Assembly: GCA_020852815.1 (NCBI GenBank)
Contig: JADZAN010000046.1
Span: forward strand, 186,001-250,000
DNA length: 64,000 nt
Direction of reading: 5' to 3'
DNA from: Gemmatimonadaceae bacterium
GTDB taxonomy: Bacteria; Gemmatimonadota; Gemmatimonadetes; Gemmatimonadales; Gemmatimonadaceae
The notes under the pieces are model-generated. The model was not told where the DNA came from. It saw only the letters and a list, made by a program, of their open reading frames with translations, and did not search any database. Positions 13,333 through 44,180 of the stretch are shown here, in pieces. Within the stretch, counting starts at the first letter, position 1, and every line of letters starts with the position of its first letter. Position numbers and translations under genes: made by a program.

Positions 13333-14079
13333 CTACGGCTGCAACGCGCGCTTGGCACGAGGCGTCGTCCCCACCTCGGCCGCCTTGCGACGAAACGCTG
13401 CGCCGTGGTCGATGGGGTAGCCGCTCTCTTCCTGCCACTGGTGCACCATCTCATGCAGGAGCGTGTCGGTCGCTTGCGCCCAACCATCGCGACGGATGTG
13501 GCGTCTGGAGATGGCGATCTCGGCGCCGGCTGGGTGCGACCGTGCCGGCGCGTAATGCCCGAGCCGCGACTTCATGCGGCGCGAGACGGTGACCGTGATG
13601 GTGCGCAGCGCTCCGCCAAAGTGCAGGGCGTTCAGGCGCGCGTGTTCGCGACGCAGTCGCACGGCCATGGCGTCGTCGTCCGGATGCAGCGGGGTGCGCC
13701 GTGGCGGACGCGGCGCGGCGTCGCGGTGGATGGGATGGGTGAGGATGATCCGCTTGGCGGCGAGGCGGGCCGCGCCGCGCGCCGTGACGAAGACGGCAAT
13801 GGCGCGCACGACGTCGTCGGGAGCGGTGGCGAAGCCTTGCTGCACGCGCAGGGTGCCGGCGCGGAAGGAGACGAGCGTCGTGCGGTTTCGGGTGAGGCGG
13901 AGCGTCTGGATGCCGGTCATGCCGAAGGCACGCAGGCGATGGAGGAGGAGGTCGGCGGCGTGGGGGGAGGGGCGGGTGGGGGGGGTGGGGGTGGGGCTTG
14001 AGGGCGCGGGGGTGGGGGTGGCGCTGGGGCCCCCCCCCGACCACAACATCGCTCCCGCCCCCTCACCCTCCCTCACCAT
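13333..14079 (-). CDS. SprT-like zinc metallopeptidase-type protein
   Basis: About 248 residues. The C-terminal half is SprT-like: HEMVHQWQEESGYPIDHG near 208-225 gives the HExxH zinc site with a following His, then a basic C-terminus. The N-terminal region is Pro/Thr/Ser-rich and encoded by a long G-tract on the opposite strand, so the true start is uncertain (ATG 14079, 14049 or 13920). SprT-like domains occur in proteases acting on DNA-protein crosslinks and in uncharacterised bacterial homologues. It stands between two unrelated minus-strand genes. Confidence 0.72.
   Translation of the reverse strand: MVREGEGAGAMLWSGGGPSATPTPAPSSPTPTPPTRPSPHAADLLLHRLRAFGMTGIQTLRLTRNRTTLVSFRAGTLRVQQGFATAPDDVVRAIAVFVTARGAARLAAKRIILTHPIHRDAAPRPPRRTPLHPDDDAMAVRLRREHARLNALHFGGALRTITVTVSRRMKSRLGHYAPARSHPAGAEIAISRRHIRRDGWAQATDTLLHEMVHQWQEESGYPIDHGAAFRRKAAEVGTTPRAKRALQP
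13961..14030 (+). repeat. Long G-tract region with multiple runs of 3-8 guanines
   Basis: The plus strand has many G-runs separated by one to a few bases and ends in nine cytosines. It satisfies the simple four-run G-quadruplex pattern several times over. It lies across the 5' part of the SprT-like gene and encodes its Pro/Thr-rich segment on the minus strand, so the mRNA itself is C-rich and the quadruplex, if formed, would be on the non-transcribed (plus) DNA strand. Confidence 0.7.
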
Positions 14080-14312
14080 TCCATTCCGCGTTGTACCAGA
14101 AACGCCCCGACGCCTCCGCGCTCCCCGCCCGAGCGCCTCTCCGCCCTTTCCCGCGCGCCGATCATCAACTGGCGCGCTACCCTCACCACGACGCTCACCA
14201 TCTCGTCCACCTCCGCGCCCTCCACGCGTACCACCGCCCGCCCCACCGCCGCGACGCCCCCCGTCGCCAGCAGTCGGCCCCAGAGCAAGCTCCAACTGCT
14301 CGGCCAAAGCGC

Positions 14313-36119: not shown

Positions 36120-36575
36120 ATGCAGTCGCGCTCGCTCGTCGTCGCCCTCCTCTCGCTCCTCGCCACGTCTGCCACGGCGTGCGGCCCGCGCTCACGCGCC
36201 GCCGACTCGGCCACGCATAATCGCGTCGCCGGCGGGCCGCCCATCGCCTCGTCGCTCGACGTGCAACTGCGCGATGCGGTGAGCTTCGCGTTTCACGTCA
36301 CCAACAACGCGACCAAGCGGCTCGAACTCACCTTCCCCAATGGCCTCACGCACGACCTCCTCGTCCTCGACGACGCGGGGCGCGAAGTGTGGCGATGGAG
36401 TGATGGCCGGATGTTCACGCAGACGCTGCAGACGCACGTGCTGGAGACCAACGAAACGGTCTCATACGCCGCCGTGTGGAGCCCCGCCGAGCATCACGGC
36501 GCTTTCACCGCCGTCGCGCGCCTCAACAGCGACAACCACCCCGTCGAACAGCGCGTCCGCTTCACGCTCCCCTAG
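36120..36575 (+). CDS. Lipoprotein with BsuPI-type domain
   Basis: 151 residues. Signal peptide ending TSATAC (lipid-modified Cys at 21), then an immunoglobulin-like beta domain: VSFAFHVTNNATKRLELTFP, HDLLVLDDAGREVWRWSDGRMFTQ and a closing strand. This is the BsuPI-related (intracellular proteinase inhibitor) fold, which also occurs in many secreted proteins without proven inhibitor activity. A 9-bp hairpin with a T-rich tail follows at 36643, so it is probably monocistronic. Confidence 0.85.
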   Translation: MQSRSLVVALLSLLATSATACGPRSRAADSATHNRVAGGPPIASSLDVQLRDAVSFAFHVTNNATKRLELTFPNGLTHDLLVLDDAGREVWRWSDGRMFTQTLQTHVLETNETVSYAAVWSPAEHHGAFTAVARLNSDNHPVEQRVRFTLP

Positions 36576-36642
36576 CGAGCGGTGGCGCGTGCACAGCGCG
36601 CACACGGCGCGCGGCGTACGCCACATCGCCATCCCGATCTCA

Positions 36643-36668
36643 CGGCGAGCCCAACGCGAGGCTCGCCG
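36643..36668 (+). terminator. Probable intrinsic terminator after the BsuPI gene
   Basis: CGGCGAGCC and its complement form a perfect 9-bp stem with an eight-base loop, followed by TTTGCGTTTC. It lies 68 bases after the stop. Confidence 0.6.
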
Positions 36669-36816
36669 TTTGCGTTTCTCTCCGCCGGCGCGGTGCATCA
36701 CGCTGGCAACGCATCGCCCCGCACGGCGCGCCGCTCGTCCGACTGCTCTTATCGTCAGGCAGGGCGCACATTACCTTCCGGCGACTTTTTCTCCGACTTT
36801 CTCCCAAGGACTTGGC

Positions 36817-37830
36817 GTGGGCAACACCGGGCCAGCATCGCAGGGCGCGCAGGAACAGCGCGATCTCGAACTCCTCAAGAAGCTCAGCGTCGCACGCCGG
36901 GACCTCCTGGCGCAGATCGGGCGCAAGATCATTGGCCAACAGGACGTCGTGGAGAACCTCGTGGCGGCGATCCTCGCCGGTGGCCACGTCGTCATCGTCG
37001 GCGTCCCGGGGCTCGCCAAGACCCTCCTCGTCCAGACCGTCGCCGAGGCGCTGGATCTCTCCTTCTCGCGCGTGCAGTTCACCCCCGACCTCATGCCGGG
37101 CGACATCACCGGCACCGAGCTGCTGGAGGAAGACCACGCCACCGGACGCCGCGTCTTCAAGTTCGTGAAGGGGCCGGTCTTCGCGAACGTCGTCCTGGCC
37201 GACGAAATCAACCGCGCCCCACCAAAGACGCAGTCGGCACTCCTGCAGGCCATGCAGGAGCGCACCGTCACCGTCGCCGGCCAGACGCACACGCTCCCGT
37301 CGCCGTTCTTCGTGCTCGCCACGCAGAACCCGATCGAGCAGGAAGCGACCTATCCCCTCCCCGAAGCGCAGCTCGACCGCTTCATGTTCGAGCTCAACGT
37401 CGGCTATCCGTCGTTTGAGGAGGAGGAGCGCATCGTCACGTCGACGACCGGGGCGGGCGCGGTCACGATCGAACCGGTGCTTCGGGGCGACGAGGTCCTG
37501 GAGCTGCAGCAACTCGTCCGTCGCATGCCGGCGCCGCCCTCGGTCGTCAAGTTCGCCGTGGGGATGGCGCGGTCGACGCGCCCCAGCGAACCCGATGCCC
37601 TCCCCGACATCCGCAAGTACGTCTCCTACGGCACCGGGCCGCGCGCATCGCAGTACCTCGTCCTCGGCGCCAAGGCGCGCGCGGCGATGGACGGGCGTCC
37701 GGTACCCGACCTCGATGACGTGCGCAGCGTGGCGATGACCGTGCTTCGGCATCGCATGGTGATGAACTTCCAGTCCGAGGCCGAGGGTGTGGGCGCCGAC
37801 CGCATCGTGACGCAGGTGCTCAAGCGGTAG
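36817..37830 (+). CDS. MoxR-family AAA+ ATPase
   Basis: 337 residues. Walker A GVPGLAKT at 62-69, Walker B VLADEINRAPPKTQSALLQAMQE near 128, sensor 1 ATQNPIEQEATYPLPEAQLDRF near 170 and a C-terminal lid. This is the standard MoxR layout. MoxR ATPases act as chaperones that activate partner proteins, often together with VWA-domain and DUF58 genes; neither is next to it here. The start is a GTG with AAGGA six bases upstream; no ATG in frame fits. Confidence 0.92.
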   Translation: MGNTGPASQGAQEQRDLELLKKLSVARRDLLAQIGRKIIGQQDVVENLVAAILAGGHVVIVGVPGLAKTLLVQTVAEALDLSFSRVQFTPDLMPGDITGTELLEEDHATGRRVFKFVKGPVFANVVLADEINRAPPKTQSALLQAMQERTVTVAGQTHTLPSPFFVLATQNPIEQEATYPLPEAQLDRFMFELNVGYPSFEEEERIVTSTTGAGAVTIEPVLRGDEVLELQQLVRRMPAPPSVVKFAVGMARSTRPSEPDALPDIRKYVSYGTGPRASQYLVLGAKARAAMDGRPVPDLDDVRSVAMTVLRHRMVMNFQSEAEGVGADRIVTQVLKR

Positions 37831-38122
37831 CCGGGTCGGGGCGCGGCCGCGGGCCGGCGCGCGGGGGGCAGGCGCGCTCCCGCCCCGCCAGGCTCCCCAC
37901 CCCACCTCCCGCGCGTAAGCCAATCGACGCCGCACGCCGCCAGCCGCAGCTCTCGCGGGTGGCGGCGTTCTGCTGCACACTATCGCCGGTTGTCGCCGTG
38001 TCCGCCCGCTCGTGCGCCCCGGAGGAAGCCCTCGCCTCACGTGACGCCCGCGTGACGGCGCGCGCGATCTTCTGGACGTCACTCGCCCCCCACCGGTGGT
38101 TCTGCCCCCGCGGAGTGTGCCC
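37831..38122. other. Intergenic region between the moxR-like and large regulator genes
   Basis: About 290 bases, very G+C-rich, with no gene I can support. GGAG at 38112 serves the downstream GTG start. No clear promoter or terminator. Confidence 0.5.
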
Positions 38123-41100
38123 GTGTTGCGTGCCGTCACGTTTGGCCAGTGCGCGTTCGAGACGTCGCAGGTGCGAATCGCTCCGGACTCGGAGATCCAC
38201 TTCGCCATTCTGCTGGTCATCGCCGCGGCACCCCCCGAAGGGATCCTCCGCGATGAACTCGTGGCGTGCATCTGGCCACGCGCCGACGACGAGGAGCGAC
38301 GGCACCGCCTGCGGCAGGCGATGTATCGACTGCGCCAGCTCGACGTCCCCGTGCACCTGCGCGGCGGATCGGTGGTGCTCGACTGGGAGCGCTGCGCGCT
38401 GGACGTTCACCTCCTCCTGCACGGGACGCCGCCGCGCGAGCTCCTGGTCCGGCTGGGGGCCGTCCCCTTCCTGCCGGCGTACGCGCCCAACCTTGGCGAG
38501 CCGCTGGCGCACTGGCTGGAGGCGCTACGCGCGCGCGTGGCGACGCGCCTGCGGCGCGCCCTCTCCGACGAGGTGACGTCGACCCGCGGGCGGGCCCGCT
38601 TTCATGAGATGGGGCAGGTTGCGCGCGCCCTGCTGGCGCTCGATCCACTGAACGAGGTGGGGACGCTGGGGCTCGCCGAGGCGCTGGCGCTCGAGGGGAG
38701 CAAGGTCGAGGCGCTGCGCCTGCTCGAGGACTACGAGGAGGAGGTGGGGGCCATCAGCGCCGACTTGCAGCTCCCGGCGCGCATCCTGCGCCGGCGCGTG
38801 GCCGAGGTCCTGGACGACTCGCTGGTGCTGCGCCGCTTCGAGCTCCCGTTCATCGGGCGCGAGCGCGAGTTCCAGGTGTTGCGCCAGCTCCTGCGCGAGG
38901 TGCGGGGGGGCGACCGGCACGCCGCCATCATCACGGGCGAGGCGGGGGTGGGGAAGAGCCGGCTGGCGGGGGAGTTGTTGCGGCTGGCGGCACTGGACGG
39001 CGTCACGATCGCCACCTACACGCCGTCGGCCGGCGACACGTTCACGCCGGTGAGCACGCTGGTCACCGTGGGACAGCTCCTCCTGACGCTGCCCGGGGCG
39101 CTGGGGTGCGCGCAGGAGCACTTGCACTACGTGCGGCACCTGGGGACGCCGGAGACGGTGACCGTGTGGAGCGTGACCGGGATGGCGGCCGACATTCTCT
39201 ACGCGCAGCTGGTGCAGGCGCTGGCCGAGCTGGTAATGGCCATCGCCGACGAGGCGCCGCTGGTGCTGTTCGTCGACGACGCCGAGCGGCTGCACCCCAC
39301 CACGTGGCGCGTGCTGATGGATGTGTGGGACCGCGTGGAGACGCGTCCCGTGTGCTTCCTCTTTGCGGCGCGCCGGTTGCCGCCCGCGTACGGTTCGTTA
39401 GGCGCGCCCAGCTGCGAGCGGTTGACGCAGCACGTGCGCCTGGCGCCGTTTGCCAACGACGACTCGCTCCTGTTCGTGCAGCGTTGGGGGGAGCGCAACC
39501 GCGTGGTGGTGGACGAGGAGGCAGCGCTGCGGGTGGCGACGTTGTCGAGCGGGAACCCCTTCTATTTATCGGAGCTCGTGGCGCACCTGGGGCGTGGAGG
39601 CGACCCGCAGCAGACGCCGCCGAGCATTCGCGACCTGATCGGGGCGCAGCACGATGTGTTGTCGCGCGAGGCTCGGCGGGTGCTGCTGGTCGTGGCCATT
39701 CTGGAGACGCGCGCGACGACGACCCGTGCCGTGCGGCTGCTGGAGATGCCCGCCAACGACTTCATGGCGGCGATGGACGAGTTGCAGGGGGCGGGGCTGG
39801 TGGCGACGAAGGGGCCGGTGGTGTGGTGTCGGCACCGGATGGTGGCGGCGCTGGCCTCGGAGCTGGAGGTGCCGAGCATCGTGGCCTTTGCGCATGCGCG
39901 GGCGGCGGCGATGCTGGAGGGCGAGGCGGACGCTTCGCAATCGGTGGAGTTGTTAGGCGACTGTGTGACGCACTGGGAGGAGGCGGGCGAGGTAAGGAAG
40001 GCGTACGAGGCGGCGATGAAGTTGGGGTATCGGTTGGTGGCGTTGGGGATGGGGGATGAGGCGTGTAAGGCGTTTGCTGCGGCCCGCCGCTGCTCAGAAA
40101 CCGACGACGACCTTCTTCCCGCGCTGGAAGGTTCGATCGCCGCAGCACGGCTGTGCGCGAACTGGAGCGACGTTAAGGACTTCTGCAGCGAGCGAAGCGA
40201 AGTTCGTGCACGCCTGTCTCTCTCGGTTTCAAGCCACGACGAATACGATCTCTTCCACGCAGAAGCCTGCATGCTTCTGTTCGACCAGAGGGAATGGCCA
40301 GGAAGACTGTCATCGATACTGGAGTCGCGAGAATCTACTTCCGGTTTCCGGCTCCGAGCAGCCACTCTCCAAGCGATGCTTGGAGACAACGACTACGACG
40401 AAGATGCGATTCGCTCAGCGGCGTCGAGCGCCTTAGAAGCGATCGATTCCTCAGATGTGACGGAACTGGAGAGCACGCTGTTTCGACTTGTGTACGACAC
40501 AACTGTCGGTGATGCACATCGAGTACGCGATCATGCACTCAAGTACGCGAACCTGTCGCGAGCATCAGAGGAGATCCGTCAGCAGATACACGGCCTTCGT
40601 CGCTCGGCTAACGCCCTTGTTCGCGTTGGCTTGCACGACGTTGCGCGTCCTCTGCTTGAAGAGACTCTTGCCCTGGCAACCAAGTACAAGCTGCAGGCAC
40701 AACAGTTCGCAACTTCCGATGTTCTGCTTACCTCATACCTACTCTGCGGCGAAGTAGACCTTGGAGTGGTGGAATTGACACGACAGCGAGAAATCTGCTC
40801 CCGGAATCCCACGGAAACTCTTCACGTATTGCTTCGCTACTCGGAAAGCGTGTTCGCATGGCTCACGAACGACGTGGCTTTGGCTCGAACACTATACAGG
40901 CAAATGCCTCCCACGAGACGCTTTCCGCTGATGGCCACACAGTACTGCGTTGACATAGGTGACCTCGCGCTTCGGCTGCTTATCAGTCAGCACCCCACAA
41001 CGCGACGCGAAACGATTCGTCTTCACGCGCAGCATATGCGCGGGCGTTCGTTCGGGCGCCAAGACATCAACACAAGGGTTCTCAGCGCGGCATTCCGCTC

Positions 41101-41227
41101 TATCGGAGCGGATAAGGCGGCTCAGAAGCTGGAAGCGGAGTACGCATCAGTTCGACGCGAGATAACGGTGGGGCCGTTCACGTTTGCGCAGACGGAAGCC
41201 AAGTCGATCAAGAAACGCTACAAATGA
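38123..41227 (+). CDS. Large BTAD/AAA-ATPase/TPR transcriptional regulator (SARP-like), composite composition
   Basis: 1034 residues. An N-terminal winged-helix-like region (LRDELVACIWPRADDEERRHRLRQAMYRLR near 45-75) and a bacterial transcriptional activator domain (about 100-250) precede an ATPase with Walker A GEAGVGKS at 272-279 and Walker B LVLFVDDAE near 380, then helical TPR-like repeats to the end. This is the AfsR/SARP-like architecture for ATP-controlled activation. Start GTG with GGAG seven bases upstream. The DNA changes abruptly near 40075 (residue about 651): upstream is over 70% G+C, downstream near 52-60% with different codon use, yet the frame is intact. Confidence 0.82.
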   Translation: MLRAVTFGQCAFETSQVRIAPDSEIHFAILLVIAAAPPEGILRDELVACIWPRADDEERRHRLRQAMYRLRQLDVPVHLRGGSVVLDWERCALDVHLLLHGTPPRELLVRLGAVPFLPAYAPNLGEPLAHWLEALRARVATRLRRALSDEVTSTRGRARFHEMGQVARALLALDPLNEVGTLGLAEALALEGSKVEALRLLEDYEEEVGAISADLQLPARILRRRVAEVLDDSLVLRRFELPFIGREREFQVLRQLLREVRGGDRHAAIITGEAGVGKSRLAGELLRLAALDGVTIATYTPSAGDTFTPVSTLVTVGQLLLTLPGALGCAQEHLHYVRHLGTPETVTVWSVTGMAADILYAQLVQALAELVMAIADEAPLVLFVDDAERLHPTTWRVLMDVWDRVETRPVCFLFAARRLPPAYGSLGAPSCERLTQHVRLAPFANDDSLLFVQRWGERNRVVVDEEAALRVATLSSGNPFYLSELVAHLGRGGDPQQTPPSIRDLIGAQHDVLSREARRVLLVVAILETRATTTRAVRLLEMPANDFMAAMDELQGAGLVATKGPVVWCRHRMVAALASELEVPSIVAFAHARAAAMLEGEADASQSVELLGDCVTHWEEAGEVRKAYEAAMKLGYRLVALGMGDEACKAFAAARRCSETDDDLLPALEGSIAAARLCANWSDVKDFCSERSEVRARLSLSVSSHDEYDLFHAEACMLLFDQREWPGRLSSILESRESTSGFRLRAATLQAMLGDNDYDEDAIRSAASSALEAIDSSDVTELESTLFRLVYDTTVGDAHRVRDHALKYANLSRASEEIRQQIHGLRRSANALVRVGLHDVARPLLEETLALATKYKLQAQQFATSDVLLTSYLLCGEVDLGVVELTRQREICSRNPTETLHVLLRYSESVFAWLTNDVALARTLYRQMPPTRRFPLMATQYCVDIGDLALRLLISQHPTTRRETIRLHAQHMRGRSFGRQDINTRVLSAAFRSIGADKAAQKLEAEYASVRREITVGPFTFAQTEAKSIKKRYK

Positions 41228-43025
41228 TCGATCCGATGTAGCGCCGCGCTAGGCCACGGCTGGCTTTGCCTCACCGACCTGCTTCGTGGGATTCGCAGCG
41301 CGAGATTCCTCCACCGACGCGAACAACTCGGCCCAGACGGCTTGCGATACAACAACATCGCAAATGCTCGGGTCGAACTGCTTTCCCCGGAACTTGATGA
41401 ACTCTCGCCGAGCTTCCTCAGCGTCGAGCGCTTTTCGGTATGGGCGATCAGTCGTTATCGCATCGAGGGTATCTGCAAACATGATTATCCGCGACGCGAG
41501 AGGAATACTCTCTCCCTTGATCGAATCGGGGTAGCCGGTTCCATCCCAGTTCTCGTGGTGGTGTCGAACTGCAGGCACTATGTCTTTCAGACTCGTCAGC
41601 AATCCAACCAACTCGGCACCACGGACAGGATGGAGCTTCATTATGGCCCACTCATCGGGAGTGAGGCGCCCTTCTTTCGCCAAGATGCGAGCGAACTTCT
41701 CATCGATCTTACCGACATCATGCAGAAGTGCCGCCACCTCAACGCGCTCGACCTTGTCGGGCTTGAGGCCAATCGCCTTGGCTATGATACGCGACGCCTG
41801 CGAGACCCTCTTAGAATGGCCTGACGTATACGGGTCTCGCGCTTCGATTGCCGCGACCATCAGATCGAGTAGCTCCTCGGTGACTCCTGTAAGTTCGGCT
41901 GTTGTTCTCAACAATTGGCGCACGGCGATCATTGGAATCGCCATTCCCAACGTTCCGACGAGGCCGAGATTCTCAGTTAACCAACTCGTGTAGAACGTCA
42001 GGAATACGTGAAAGACCGAGAAGATGGCCGTTGACTTGTTGCCATCGACCCAGAGGCGAAGAAAGCTCTGTCCCGACACCGCGCTGACGACAGCGCTGAC
42101 GCTGAGCGTATTGACCAACATTACGCTGGCAACGAGTACCGTCGTCGGTGCTAGAGTCCTAGTTGCTGTCGATAGAAAGCTGGTGTCAGCGACGTCTCCG
42201 AATGGCAGGCCACCAAACTGGTGGAAGAGGTAGATCCCAACACCGAATCCGAGCGAGACTTGCGCCACGTTGAAGCAGAACTTCAACGCGGGCCTCTTCT
42301 TGTGCACCTCCGTCACCGTCTGAGCCAGGACAACCAACGCCAGGCCGCGGTAATCCGGGAGAATAAGTGCGGCGCTCGACAGCGGAATCAAGGCGATAGA
42401 GCCGACGACGTTCTTACCTTGAGCGTAGAACGACATGAAATCGGCTAGAACCGCCAATCCGGCTAGAGCGACCCCAAGGAGTACGCTCGGATTCTCGCTT
42501 GCCGGAACTCTCAGGAGAACTAGCACGAACGCCGCGACCGCCAGCGACGCGGTAACCGCGACGACTGGCGAGGCCTTGCGCGCACCACCACGGCTTGTCT
42601 GGGTCGGCTCGACGTGTTCGATCAAGCGGCTCCAGGGCCTTGGTTCTAATCTCTGAGTAGTTTTTTCCACTCGGGACGGAAGCACTCGCCAGTGCCGAGG
42701 AATCGTTGATTCGACGAGTTGGCGCGGTTGCGGATACAGCGATCTTTAGGTGAGAGGGCCCCCGCCCCGAGGTCAGTTCCAAGTCAGAAGGCCAGAAAGT
42801 ACTCCGACAATCCACTCGACGATACCCATACTCGCGTCACCTCCCTTCGAGCGTCATGCCCGATCCACTGGACATGCGGTTCTTCTAAGGTTGGCTCCGC
42901 TCGTACTGCTGGTGTTCCCGCTCTACTTCGCTCGCACGGGAACGGGGGCCTCAGTTGTCTGGTGCTGGCGTTCTGGCTGCGGGTAAGGTTCGAGGATCCG
43001 ACGACGACGTTGACCCGAATGGCTC
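40075..43025. other. Low-G+C segment of about 3 kb, possible horizontally acquired or replaced DNA
   Basis: Hand counts on sample lines give 73% G+C at 38641-38700 and 52% at 40261-40320. The lower value persists through the 3' third of the regulator gene, the whole HD-GYP gene and the following non-coding stretch, and the composition returns to normal near 43025. Codons rare elsewhere here (AAA, TTA, TCA, CTT) are frequent. The CGTTAGGC octamer common in the rest is absent. No insertion sequence, integrase or repeat flanks are seen. Confidence 0.75.
41249..42685 (-). CDS. HD-GYP phosphodiesterase with an integral-membrane N-terminal domain
   Basis: 478 residues. Seven or so hydrophobic helices (about 40-240) form the sensor part, followed by an HD-GYP domain: HDVGKID near 320, HHENWDGTGYP near 374 and MFADTLDAITTDRPYR near 400. 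These are the metal ligands and GYP motif of c-di-GMP phosphodiesterases; a short linker SGHSKRV gives the first His. The membrane part contains no PAS or GAF. The start is uncertain (GTG 42685, or a TTG about 25 codons later). The gene is convergent with the regulator and sits inside the low-G+C segment. Confidence 0.85.
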   Translation of the reverse strand: MLPSRVEKTTQRLEPRPWSRLIEHVEPTQTSRGGARKASPVVAVTASLAVAAFVLVLLRVPASENPSVLLGVALAGLAVLADFMSFYAQGKNVVGSIALIPLSSAALILPDYRGLALVVLAQTVTEVHKKRPALKFCFNVAQVSLGFGVGIYLFHQFGGLPFGDVADTSFLSTATRTLAPTTVLVASVMLVNTLSVSAVVSAVSGQSFLRLWVDGNKSTAIFSVFHVFLTFYTSWLTENLGLVGTLGMAIPMIAVRQLLRTTAELTGVTEELLDLMVAAIEARDPYTSGHSKRVSQASRIIAKAIGLKPDKVERVEVAALLHDVGKIDEKFARILAKEGRLTPDEWAIMKLHPVRGAELVGLLTSLKDIVPAVRHHHENWDGTGYPDSIKGESIPLASRIIMFADTLDAITTDRPYRKALDAEEARREFIKFRGKQFDPSICDVVVSQAVWAELFASVEESRAANPTKQVGEAKPAVA

Positions 43026-43084
43026 GTTAGGCGCCGCCGCGCCCAGCATCCCGCCGCGCCACCCACGCTCCGCGCGGACGACGC
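42686..43084. other. Intergenic region between HD-GYP and the conserved unknown gene
   Basis: About 400 bases of mixed composition with no gene I can support. Short open frames on both strands are Arg/Ser-rich and show no family similarity. The left 340 bases have the low-G+C character; the last 60 return to the genome type, starting with a CGTTAGGC octamer at 43025. It should hold the HD-GYP promoter; I see no clear hexamers. Confidence 0.5.
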
Positions 43085-43948
43085 TCAGGCGCCTGCTGTC
43101 GCTCGCGACAACCAGCGGTTGGTGGCGTCCAGTACAGCCAGCACGCTGGCCGTCTCGGGGCTGTCCTTCACTTCACAGCTCCCGGTCAGCAACACACTGG
43201 TCCGCGATTGCTGAACCGTCACCCCCACGAAGACGAACTCACGGTCGAACGCCTCGATCAACTTCGCCCCGCCAAGGTCCAGTGGGCGGACCCCTGGTTC
43301 CCCTTCCACGATCGCGCGCAGCGCGGCTCTCGCCGCCAACTCGACTCGCGATCGCTCGTTCTCCATGCCTTCGGCCTCGCCGATGAAGGACTTTTCACCC
43401 TTGCTCAGGGTAACGCGACATGTGATCCCCGTCGCACGCGATCGGCGTACTTCGACATCCTCGAAATAGAACGGGCGTCGCAGCGACTTCTCCCCCCCCA
43501 CCGCCAACTGCCCCGCCGCCGGCGTCGCCACAGCTCCCGCCGCAGGACTCGCGACACCAACCGCCGACATCGCCCCGGGCAACTGTCCTCCAGCGCCTGG
43601 CGCCGCAACGGCAGGCGCGGCACCGGCTGCCGGCGCGCCCCCCGCCGCCCCCTCGACACGAGCGTCCTTGGGACGCCGCTGATCGAGGCTGGTGGCAACC
43701 GAGATCTTCCGGTGATCCACCCGCATGCCCAGATGCGCAATCAGCGCGCTCTCGATGTTGCGGACGGTCTGCTTCGGGGTGATCTCGGCCGTGGTGAGGA
43801 CATGAATCTCGTCCACGGCGCCGCTGTCGCTGGCGATGATCCGCGCCGCGATGACCCCGGGAAGGGTCGCCAGGAGTTCCTCCGCCCGCTTGATGGGAAG
43901 GACGCTTCCCGCAATGAGGGGCGAAGACTGGGGCTGTGGACTCATCAT
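43085..43948 (-). CDS. Conserved two-domain protein of unknown function
   Basis: 287 residues. N-terminal domain (about 10-80): LLATLPGVIAARIIASDSG, EIHVLTTAEITPKQTVRNIE and HLGMRVDHRKISVATS, an alpha/beta pattern resembling a small ACT- or acylphosphatase-like fold. A 70-residue Ala/Gly/Pro linker follows, then a C-terminal domain with two copies of a strand-rich motif (FYFEDVEVRRS, VFVGVTVQQSRT) and AARAALRAIVEG. I recall similar two-domain proteins in Firmicutes and Chloroflexi without a function. Two ATGs in tandem; GGAGG lies directly before them. Divergent from nothing obvious; upstream is a repeat-rich gap. Confidence 0.7.
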   Translation of the reverse strand: MMSPQPQSSPLIAGSVLPIKRAEELLATLPGVIAARIIASDSGAVDEIHVLTTAEITPKQTVRNIESALIAHLGMRVDHRKISVATSLDQRRPKDARVEGAAGGAPAAGAAPAVAAPGAGGQLPGAMSAVGVASPAAGAVATPAAGQLAVGGEKSLRRPFYFEDVEVRRSRATGITCRVTLSKGEKSFIGEAEGMENERSRVELAARAALRAIVEGEPGVRPLDLGGAKLIEAFDREFVFVGVTVQQSRTSVLLTGSCEVKDSPETASVLAVLDATNRWLSRATAGA

Positions 43949-44180
43949 CCTCCAACGCAGGATGTGATCGCGACGGCGATCACCCCGCAGGCTCTCCCGA
44001 CGGCGACAAACCGTCGAGCGGTGGTCGTGCAACCCAGCGCTCCTCGCTCACGACCCGAGAAACGCGACGTATAGTGTAGCTGTGCAAGTCCGTAATCAAG
44101 GACAGTTCCTGCCGCTGCGTCGCGGATTCTCTCACACGCCGCGTCGGCAGACTGCCTAACTCGCCGTCCCGCCGCCACTC

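Follow-up and report, generated by a model that had tools for sequence, protein, structure and literature searches.

Why does the base composition of a long regulator gene change abruptly within an open reading frame, and what does this change delimit? The gene lies in a stretch of 64,000 nucleotides from a Gemmatimonadaceae bacterium (the window, i.e., the whole DNA analyzed here), and an earlier note had read the change as a recombination junction at which the C-terminal part of the protein was exchanged. The break most likely marks one edge of a block of about 2.7 kb that is swapped as a unit among relatives.

Composition break and parts of the locus

The reading frame of the regulator (38096-41227, plus strand; 1043 codons) is uninterrupted across the break. 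In 200-base windows, G+C fell from about 0.66-0.78 upstream to 0.52-0.61 downstream. The maximum-likelihood change point for GC3 was located at codon 653 (base 40055), where GC3 dropped from 0.92 to 0.61 (2dlnL of 146); the positions within 3 log units of the maximum span 40019-40094. Thus, the fall in G+C and change of composition claimed for the surroundings of base 40075 were borne out, as was the frame that stays open past them. The skewed, G-rich and C-poor stretch said to precede the break was also recovered: bases 39950-40075 comprise 62 G, 15 C, 22 A and 27 T (G skew of 0.61), and the 126-mer starting at 39944 (skew of 0.64) is the most skewed of all 126-base windows in the window. Third-position G skew in 60-codon windows rose to 0.73 at this tract, compared with a 99th percentile of 0.43 for 5602 windows from the same genome. 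An overlapping ORF (39106-40059, plus strand) that ends at the break was judged to be a mere consequence of the high GC. Another sharp cusp in the skew was observed at 13500-14250 of the window, which is G-rich to about 14010 and then abruptly C-rich; GC is unchanged there, and the left side carries no obvious gene.

None of the other predicted genes in 476 kb of the same genome (318 genes in all) has an intragenic GC3 break as strong as that of the regulator gene. High-to-low breaks were rare in these 476 kb (five with 2dlnL >20), and the commoner low-to-high breaks probably reflect start codons that were placed too far upstream. The low-GC zone extends beyond the end of the regulator gene to about 43.0 kb, through the convergent HD-GYP gene. 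The parts of the locus are as follows:

36340-37830, plus strand: MoxR-type AAA ATPase, left flank (Pfam AAA_3, E 1.8e-62); beside the regulator in most family loci
38096-41227, plus strand: regulator, 1043 aa (ORF; Pfam AAA_16, E 1.3e-18; predicted structure, fold matches), with an N-terminal winged-helix/helical part, an AAA_16 (STAND-type) ATPase and a C-terminal TPR-like superhelix
38096-40055, plus strand: GC-rich regulator part, treated as backbone (GC3 0.92; tracks the flanking chromosome in relatives)
39944-40075, plus strand: G-rich, C-poor tract (skew 0.64; recurs before the break in 36 of 37 relatives)
40019-40094: composition break, putative left cassette edge (GC3 change point 40055)
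40056-42750: putative allelic cassette, regulator 3' part and HD-GYP gene (GC 0.57; low identity to the sister species G001 that recovers upstream of the HD-GYP start; near silent saturation)
41249-42685, minus strand: HD-GYP protein, 478 aa, convergent (Pfam HD_5, E 5.1e-35; translation; partner in 30 of 31 loci)
42686-43030: low-GC leader upstream of HD-GYP (island ends at 43030 by GC segmentation; identity to G001 already 0.79)
43085-44032, minus strand: right flanking gene, 315 aa (no Pfam family; conserved position; inward third-position G-skew)

In the regulator, only AAA_16 and the related AAA_22 exceeded the Pfam cut-off. Trans_reg_C stayed below the threshold (E 0.09), and Pfam BTAD was not matched. 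The P-loop residues G281, G284, G286 and K287 are invariant. The label TPR, given earlier to the C-terminal part, found no Pfam match, but the predicted structure (mean pLDDT of 84.5) contains TPR-like helical hairpins at residues 593-1043 with high confidence. The top fold matches were a STAND-TPR protein, Avs3, CED-4 and plant NLRs, with low whole-length TM-scores (0.18-0.25). With an AAA_16/STAND core carrying the P-loop and a C-terminal helical-repeat part, the regulator is, on its predicted structure, of STAND type. The translation of the HD-GYP gene shows intact HDVGKID and HHENWDGTGYP motifs and an N-terminal part predicted to be membrane-embedded, and the protein is a predicted cyclic-di-GMP phosphodiesterase. 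A search of the PDB by sequence gave no match, a single-protein search of viral and genome contigs found no relatives, and an Rfam scan of 36-46 kb matched no RNA element.

The break in other Gemmatimonadaceae

A strong high-to-low GC3 break was present in 37 of 61 non-redundant full-length regulators (14 genera), and the reverse break in none of the 61. That some family members have no break counts against reading it as a cassette edge. Break positions are lineage-specific and often alike in close relatives. Mean third-position G skew over 60 codons was 0.37 before the break vs. 0.05 after it (Wilcoxon p of 8e-7), and the skew before the break was positive in 36 of the 37 regulators. Before a gene's own break the skew was 0.37, compared with 0.22 at positions where the break lies in other genes. 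In the average of 13 loci, GC3 stayed level at about 0.88 as far as the break and was about 0.62 beyond it, and G skew ramped from about 0.15 to 0.58 over the final 100-150 codons before the break. The skew consists of a shift of four-fold codons to G; two-fold codons ending in C or T barely change, and C-to-T deamination was rejected as its source.

The same break pattern was found in relatives assembled as single contigs (G046, G047 and G152). The genome of the window is a draft of 47 contigs, which leaves room for an assembly chimera at about 40055; with the frame open, a colinear gene in the sister species and the pattern repeated in these three genomes, such an artifact is hardly credible. 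A reading without any exchange deserves more weight. The N-terminal DNA-binding/ATPase part would be strongly constrained in codons or amino acids, the C-terminal sensor part would evolve fast, and composition would change at the domain boundary. Amino acid identity indeed falls at about residue 650 in every pair, wherever the GC break is, and codons 590-660 contain many of the breaks. However, the breaks range from codon 103 to 815, and the comparisons described below for silent sites and trees also speak against it.

In 30 of the 31 loci that could be assessed, the HD-GYP gene follows the regulator gene on the opposite strand. Its GC is low at nearly every such locus, and no comparable break occurs within it. 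The gap between the two convergent genes is small or absent. On the right flank, a mirror-image C-rich skew was seen in almost all of 30 loci, which are not independent since the skew sits in one homologous gene. Codon-level skew likewise points inward at the end of the MoxR gene and in the gene on the right flank, and the ordinary genes of the window genome show an average skew of about -0.05. The inward G-skew at both edges tracks the edge.

The convergent arrangement would also suit a transcription domain, in which the HD-GYP unit is transcribed antisense into the regulator gene, the G-rich sense tract acts as a Rho-dependent terminator, and the transcriptional regime sets the composition. 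The low-GC zone begins near the HD-GYP promoter region and stops at a tract whose antisense strand is rich in C and poor in G, as such a domain would have it. However, the mirror-image skew of the right flank lies outside the supposed transcript, and neither the tree conflict nor the silent saturation of the block is predicted by transcription, so that this explanation appears improbable.

The neighbors are the same across genera, with the MoxR gene on the left and, on the right, the gene of the 315-residue protein followed by that of a sigma-54 activator. Thus, the locus is a core chromosomal site and not a mobile island; a mobile genomic island was ruled out by these conserved neighbors, and mobility domains were absent from the regulator and HD-GYP genes. 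Elsewhere in the genome of the window (contig C24, 100.8-104.5 kb; L061), partial copies of the hrpB/mutM gene junction border a low-GC islet, as if it had been inserted with target duplication.

Some loci deviate in detail. Two regulator matches occur at the locus of G074 (L078), the HD-GYP gene and the 315-aa neighbor were not found at that of G032 (L099), and about 1 kb of GC-rich DNA separates the regulator and HD-GYP genes in G152 (L037). The draft contigs of L105, L118, L124 and L094 terminate inside the regulator gene; strain-level polymorphism may have interrupted assembly at the edge of the cassette.

A Chi-like or otherwise shared edge motif was rejected, as no 6- to 8-mer exceeded synonymous-codon shuffles and GCTGGTGG was not enriched. 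The 7-mer GTTAGGC (usually as CGTTAGGC) is about 19-fold over-represented in the 476 kb of the window genome (212 vs. 11 expected). It occurs at 35 sites of the window (e.g., 39397, 39952 and 43026) and occupies 94 of 165 TTA codons and some gene ends. Low-GC DNA seldom contains it, and two Gemmatimonas stretches lack it almost entirely; GTTAGGC could be an uptake-type or other genus-specific signal.

Exchange in Gemmatimonas and in the lineage of the window

The clearest pair comprises two Gemmatimonas species (loci L070 and L075 in genomes G058 and G065, genus g9). Nucleotide identity between them is mostly 84-98% in both flanks and 36-82% in the block that runs from the break to a point shortly before the HD-GYP start. 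The drop begins at regulator codons 515-524, i.e., at the GC break of both genes. At four-fold sites of unchanged residues, identity fell from 0.87 before the break to 0.22 after it, and in the HD-GYP gene four-fold silent identity was 0.31 despite 72% amino acid identity. This saturation of silent sites beyond the break, also in a gene whose protein is well conserved, is not what a fast-evolving sensor part without exchange would leave. Other close pairs showed a jump in silent identity of differing degree, and L072/L073 and L100/L104 showed none. Divergence is thus apparently all-or-none, which is the pattern expected from replacement. For more distant pairs, composition weakens the comparison of silent sites: chance matches are more frequent in GC-rich DNA, and silent identity on the GC-rich side is inflated. 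Pairs that share a cassette evolve at the rate of the flanks, which again speaks against divergence without exchange; hypermutation of the block was rejected, as these pairs showed no excess divergence.

The trees disagree accordingly between the two parts of the regulator. The N-terminal part groups L070 with L075 and L066 with L071 and L074. The trees of the C-terminal part and of the HD-GYP gene agree with each other in grouping L066 with L075 and L070 with L071 and L074. In AU tests of groupings that were named after the trees had been seen, the C-terminal data rejected L070+L075 (p of 3e-91) and the N-terminal data rejected L066+L075 (p of 4e-39). On the HD-GYP data the alternative groupings were rejected too, and the HD-GYP gene sides with the C-terminal part. 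The position of the break goes with the backbone lineage. L070 and L075 both break at 515 with cassettes of different classes, and L066, L071 and L074 have a break at about 636 in common although their cassette classes differ. This conflict contradicts in Gemmatimonas a composition change without exchange, which, as an account of the window's break, is unlikely.

Low GC is not a general mark of replaced blocks. In about 40 kb of G058 and G065 viewed by windows, the cassette was the sole low-GC block; further divergent blocks of this pair have normal GC and no edge skew. Thus, exchange alone does not explain the low GC. In some pairs, e.g., L077/L081, the GC break and the drop in amino acid identity lie apart, which counts against equating the break with a cassette edge.

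The locus has a fixed address with conserved flanks, and in Gemmatimonas also an abrupt edge of divergence and a tree conflict. As judged from these sequences, the cassettes of the relatives are shown to be orthologous, very divergent alleles replaced as one unit, with much closer flanks that include the N-terminal part of the regulator; in Gemmatimonas, the break is the edge of this exchanged allelic cassette. The recombination junction postulated earlier is therefore upheld insofar as a GC break in the regulator gene can be the edge of an exchanged segment, shown directly in Gemmatimonas. The exchanged unit is not the C-terminal part alone, since the HD-GYP neighbor is included.

In the genus of the window, G001 provided the only full-length orthologue found, which is colinear over its whole length with 57% identity and has the same neighbors and the same convergent HD-GYP partner. 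Thus, the window regulator did not acquire an unrelated C-terminal part; this half is orthologous to that of the sister species and not foreign. The two-gene island of G001 has about 60% GC throughout, with no break inside the regulator gene; the window differs in that the first 650 codons of its regulator are at genome-like GC. If a low-GC C-terminal part had been transferred once and recently from an unrelated donor, which is the simplest form of the earlier proposal, a sharp composition break in an intact frame would result. However, the C-terminal part is colinear with, and closest to, that of G001, the whole gene of this sister is low in GC, and the break pattern is family-wide, which makes such a transfer very improbable.

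G001 is the nearest relative for the N-terminal part, the C-terminal part and the HD-GYP gene of the window locus, so that no conflict between cassette and backbone was seen within this genus. Comparison of the two halves in separate phylogenies, as had been proposed, thus revealed conflict in Gemmatimonas and a common closest relative in the window lineage. The latter had been named in advance as a finding against a junction, and at present sampling it formally stands against it here. Silent identity to G001 above chance was 0.12-0.15 in four flanking genes and 0.02 in the HD-GYP gene; in the regulator gene it was 0.07-0.11 for codons 1-320, about 0-0.04 for codons 321-653 and 0.06-0.09 for the C-terminal part. 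Just upstream of the HD-GYP start, nucleotide identity (0.79) exceeded that inside the gene. Since the cassette is near silent saturation relative to G001 and the flanks are not, a distant donor appears to fit less well than exchange among allele lineages inside the genus of the window. Part of this signal could also arise from faster silent change in low-GC DNA. The same cassette behavior in the window lineage is moderately supported by these values.

Proposed mechanism and known systems

Taken together, the break in the window is probably the left edge of a low-GC allelic cassette at a fixed site, comprising the sensor half of a STAND regulator and the convergent HD-GYP gene. Replacement would occur by homologous recombination in the flanks, and old alleles would stay in circulation through selection for different sensing specificities. 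The parts that vary between L070 and L075 are the C-terminal superhelix of the regulator and the N-terminal part of the HD-GYP protein, and much of the HD domain is 82-94% identical. We infer a sensing role for both of these variable parts and their inheritance as a matched pair. The conserved N-terminal part of the regulator would provide a constant output, and the swapped sensor parts of both proteins would alter the input. The contrast in composition may accrue because the flank keeps recombining and the cassette is too divergent for internal recombination, with GC-biased gene conversion as one candidate for the GC of the flank. Such conversion has been argued for bacteria (PMC4450053), and in another survey GC and recombination were, in general, little correlated (PMC4866539). 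A more far-reaching and rather doubtful proposal is that the GC step and the inward G-skews are the imprint of repeated recombination-linked synthesis or repair at a long-lived NLR-like cassette, and that the locus represents a family-wide self/non-self, signal-type or phage-sensing polymorphism.

To our knowledge, loci at which bacteria retain and exchange old, divergent sensor alleles have mostly been described in pathogens and Bacillus. If the cassette reading is true, such a locus exists in a little-studied phylum, with an immune-receptor-like STAND regulator and a predicted cyclic-di-GMP enzyme. An intragenic, lineage-specific edge with a composition signature asks directly whether recombination edges leave a compositional trace, and GC-biased gene conversion could be tested against a block that begins a few bases away. 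Composition alone may reveal the joins of swaps, and if the imprint proposal holds, exchange loci would be recognizable from a single genome.

In a limited literature search, no published description of the present cassette locus was found, nor any work naming both HD-GYP and Gemmatimonas. In Rhs and other polymorphic toxins, the conserved core is GC-rich, and both the C-terminal part behind it and the neighboring gene are low in GC. The present locus shares this sharp transition, but the C-terminal parts of the regulators are homologous over their whole length, no toxin domain was recognized, and the neighbor is convergent. Exchange of toxin tips was rejected, as the C-terminal halves align along their length and are not unrelated. 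Proteins with STAND cores and TPR-type sensors (MalT-like proteins, Avs3 and NLR immune receptors) resemble the regulator in having an AAA_16/STAND-type core followed by a helical superstructure. The regulator differs from them by its DNA-binding-like N-terminal part, the pairing of its locus with HD-GYP and the low whole-length TM-scores.

Closer parallels are found in the mode of exchange. In the comQXPA polymorphism, ComQ, ComX and the N-terminal sensor part of ComP vary, and the C-terminus of ComP and ComA are conserved (PMC5385187). Bacillus comQXPA and the present locus have in common a fixed site, an edge of polymorphism inside a gene, a varying sensor and a conserved output. In contrast to comQXPA, the present locus has no recognized signal-peptide gene, its partner being the convergent HD-GYP gene, and its edge shifts between lineages and carries a GC step and G-skew. 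The rfb (O-antigen) region of E. coli is a hotspot of homologous recombination (PMC2617782) and likewise has a fixed address between conserved genes and highly dissimilar alleles. However, rfb is a multi-gene surface-sugar cluster of varying content, whereas the present locus keeps two genes and has one intragenic edge. As far as exchange as a unit is concerned, the comparisons indicate that the present locus works like comQXPA and rfb.
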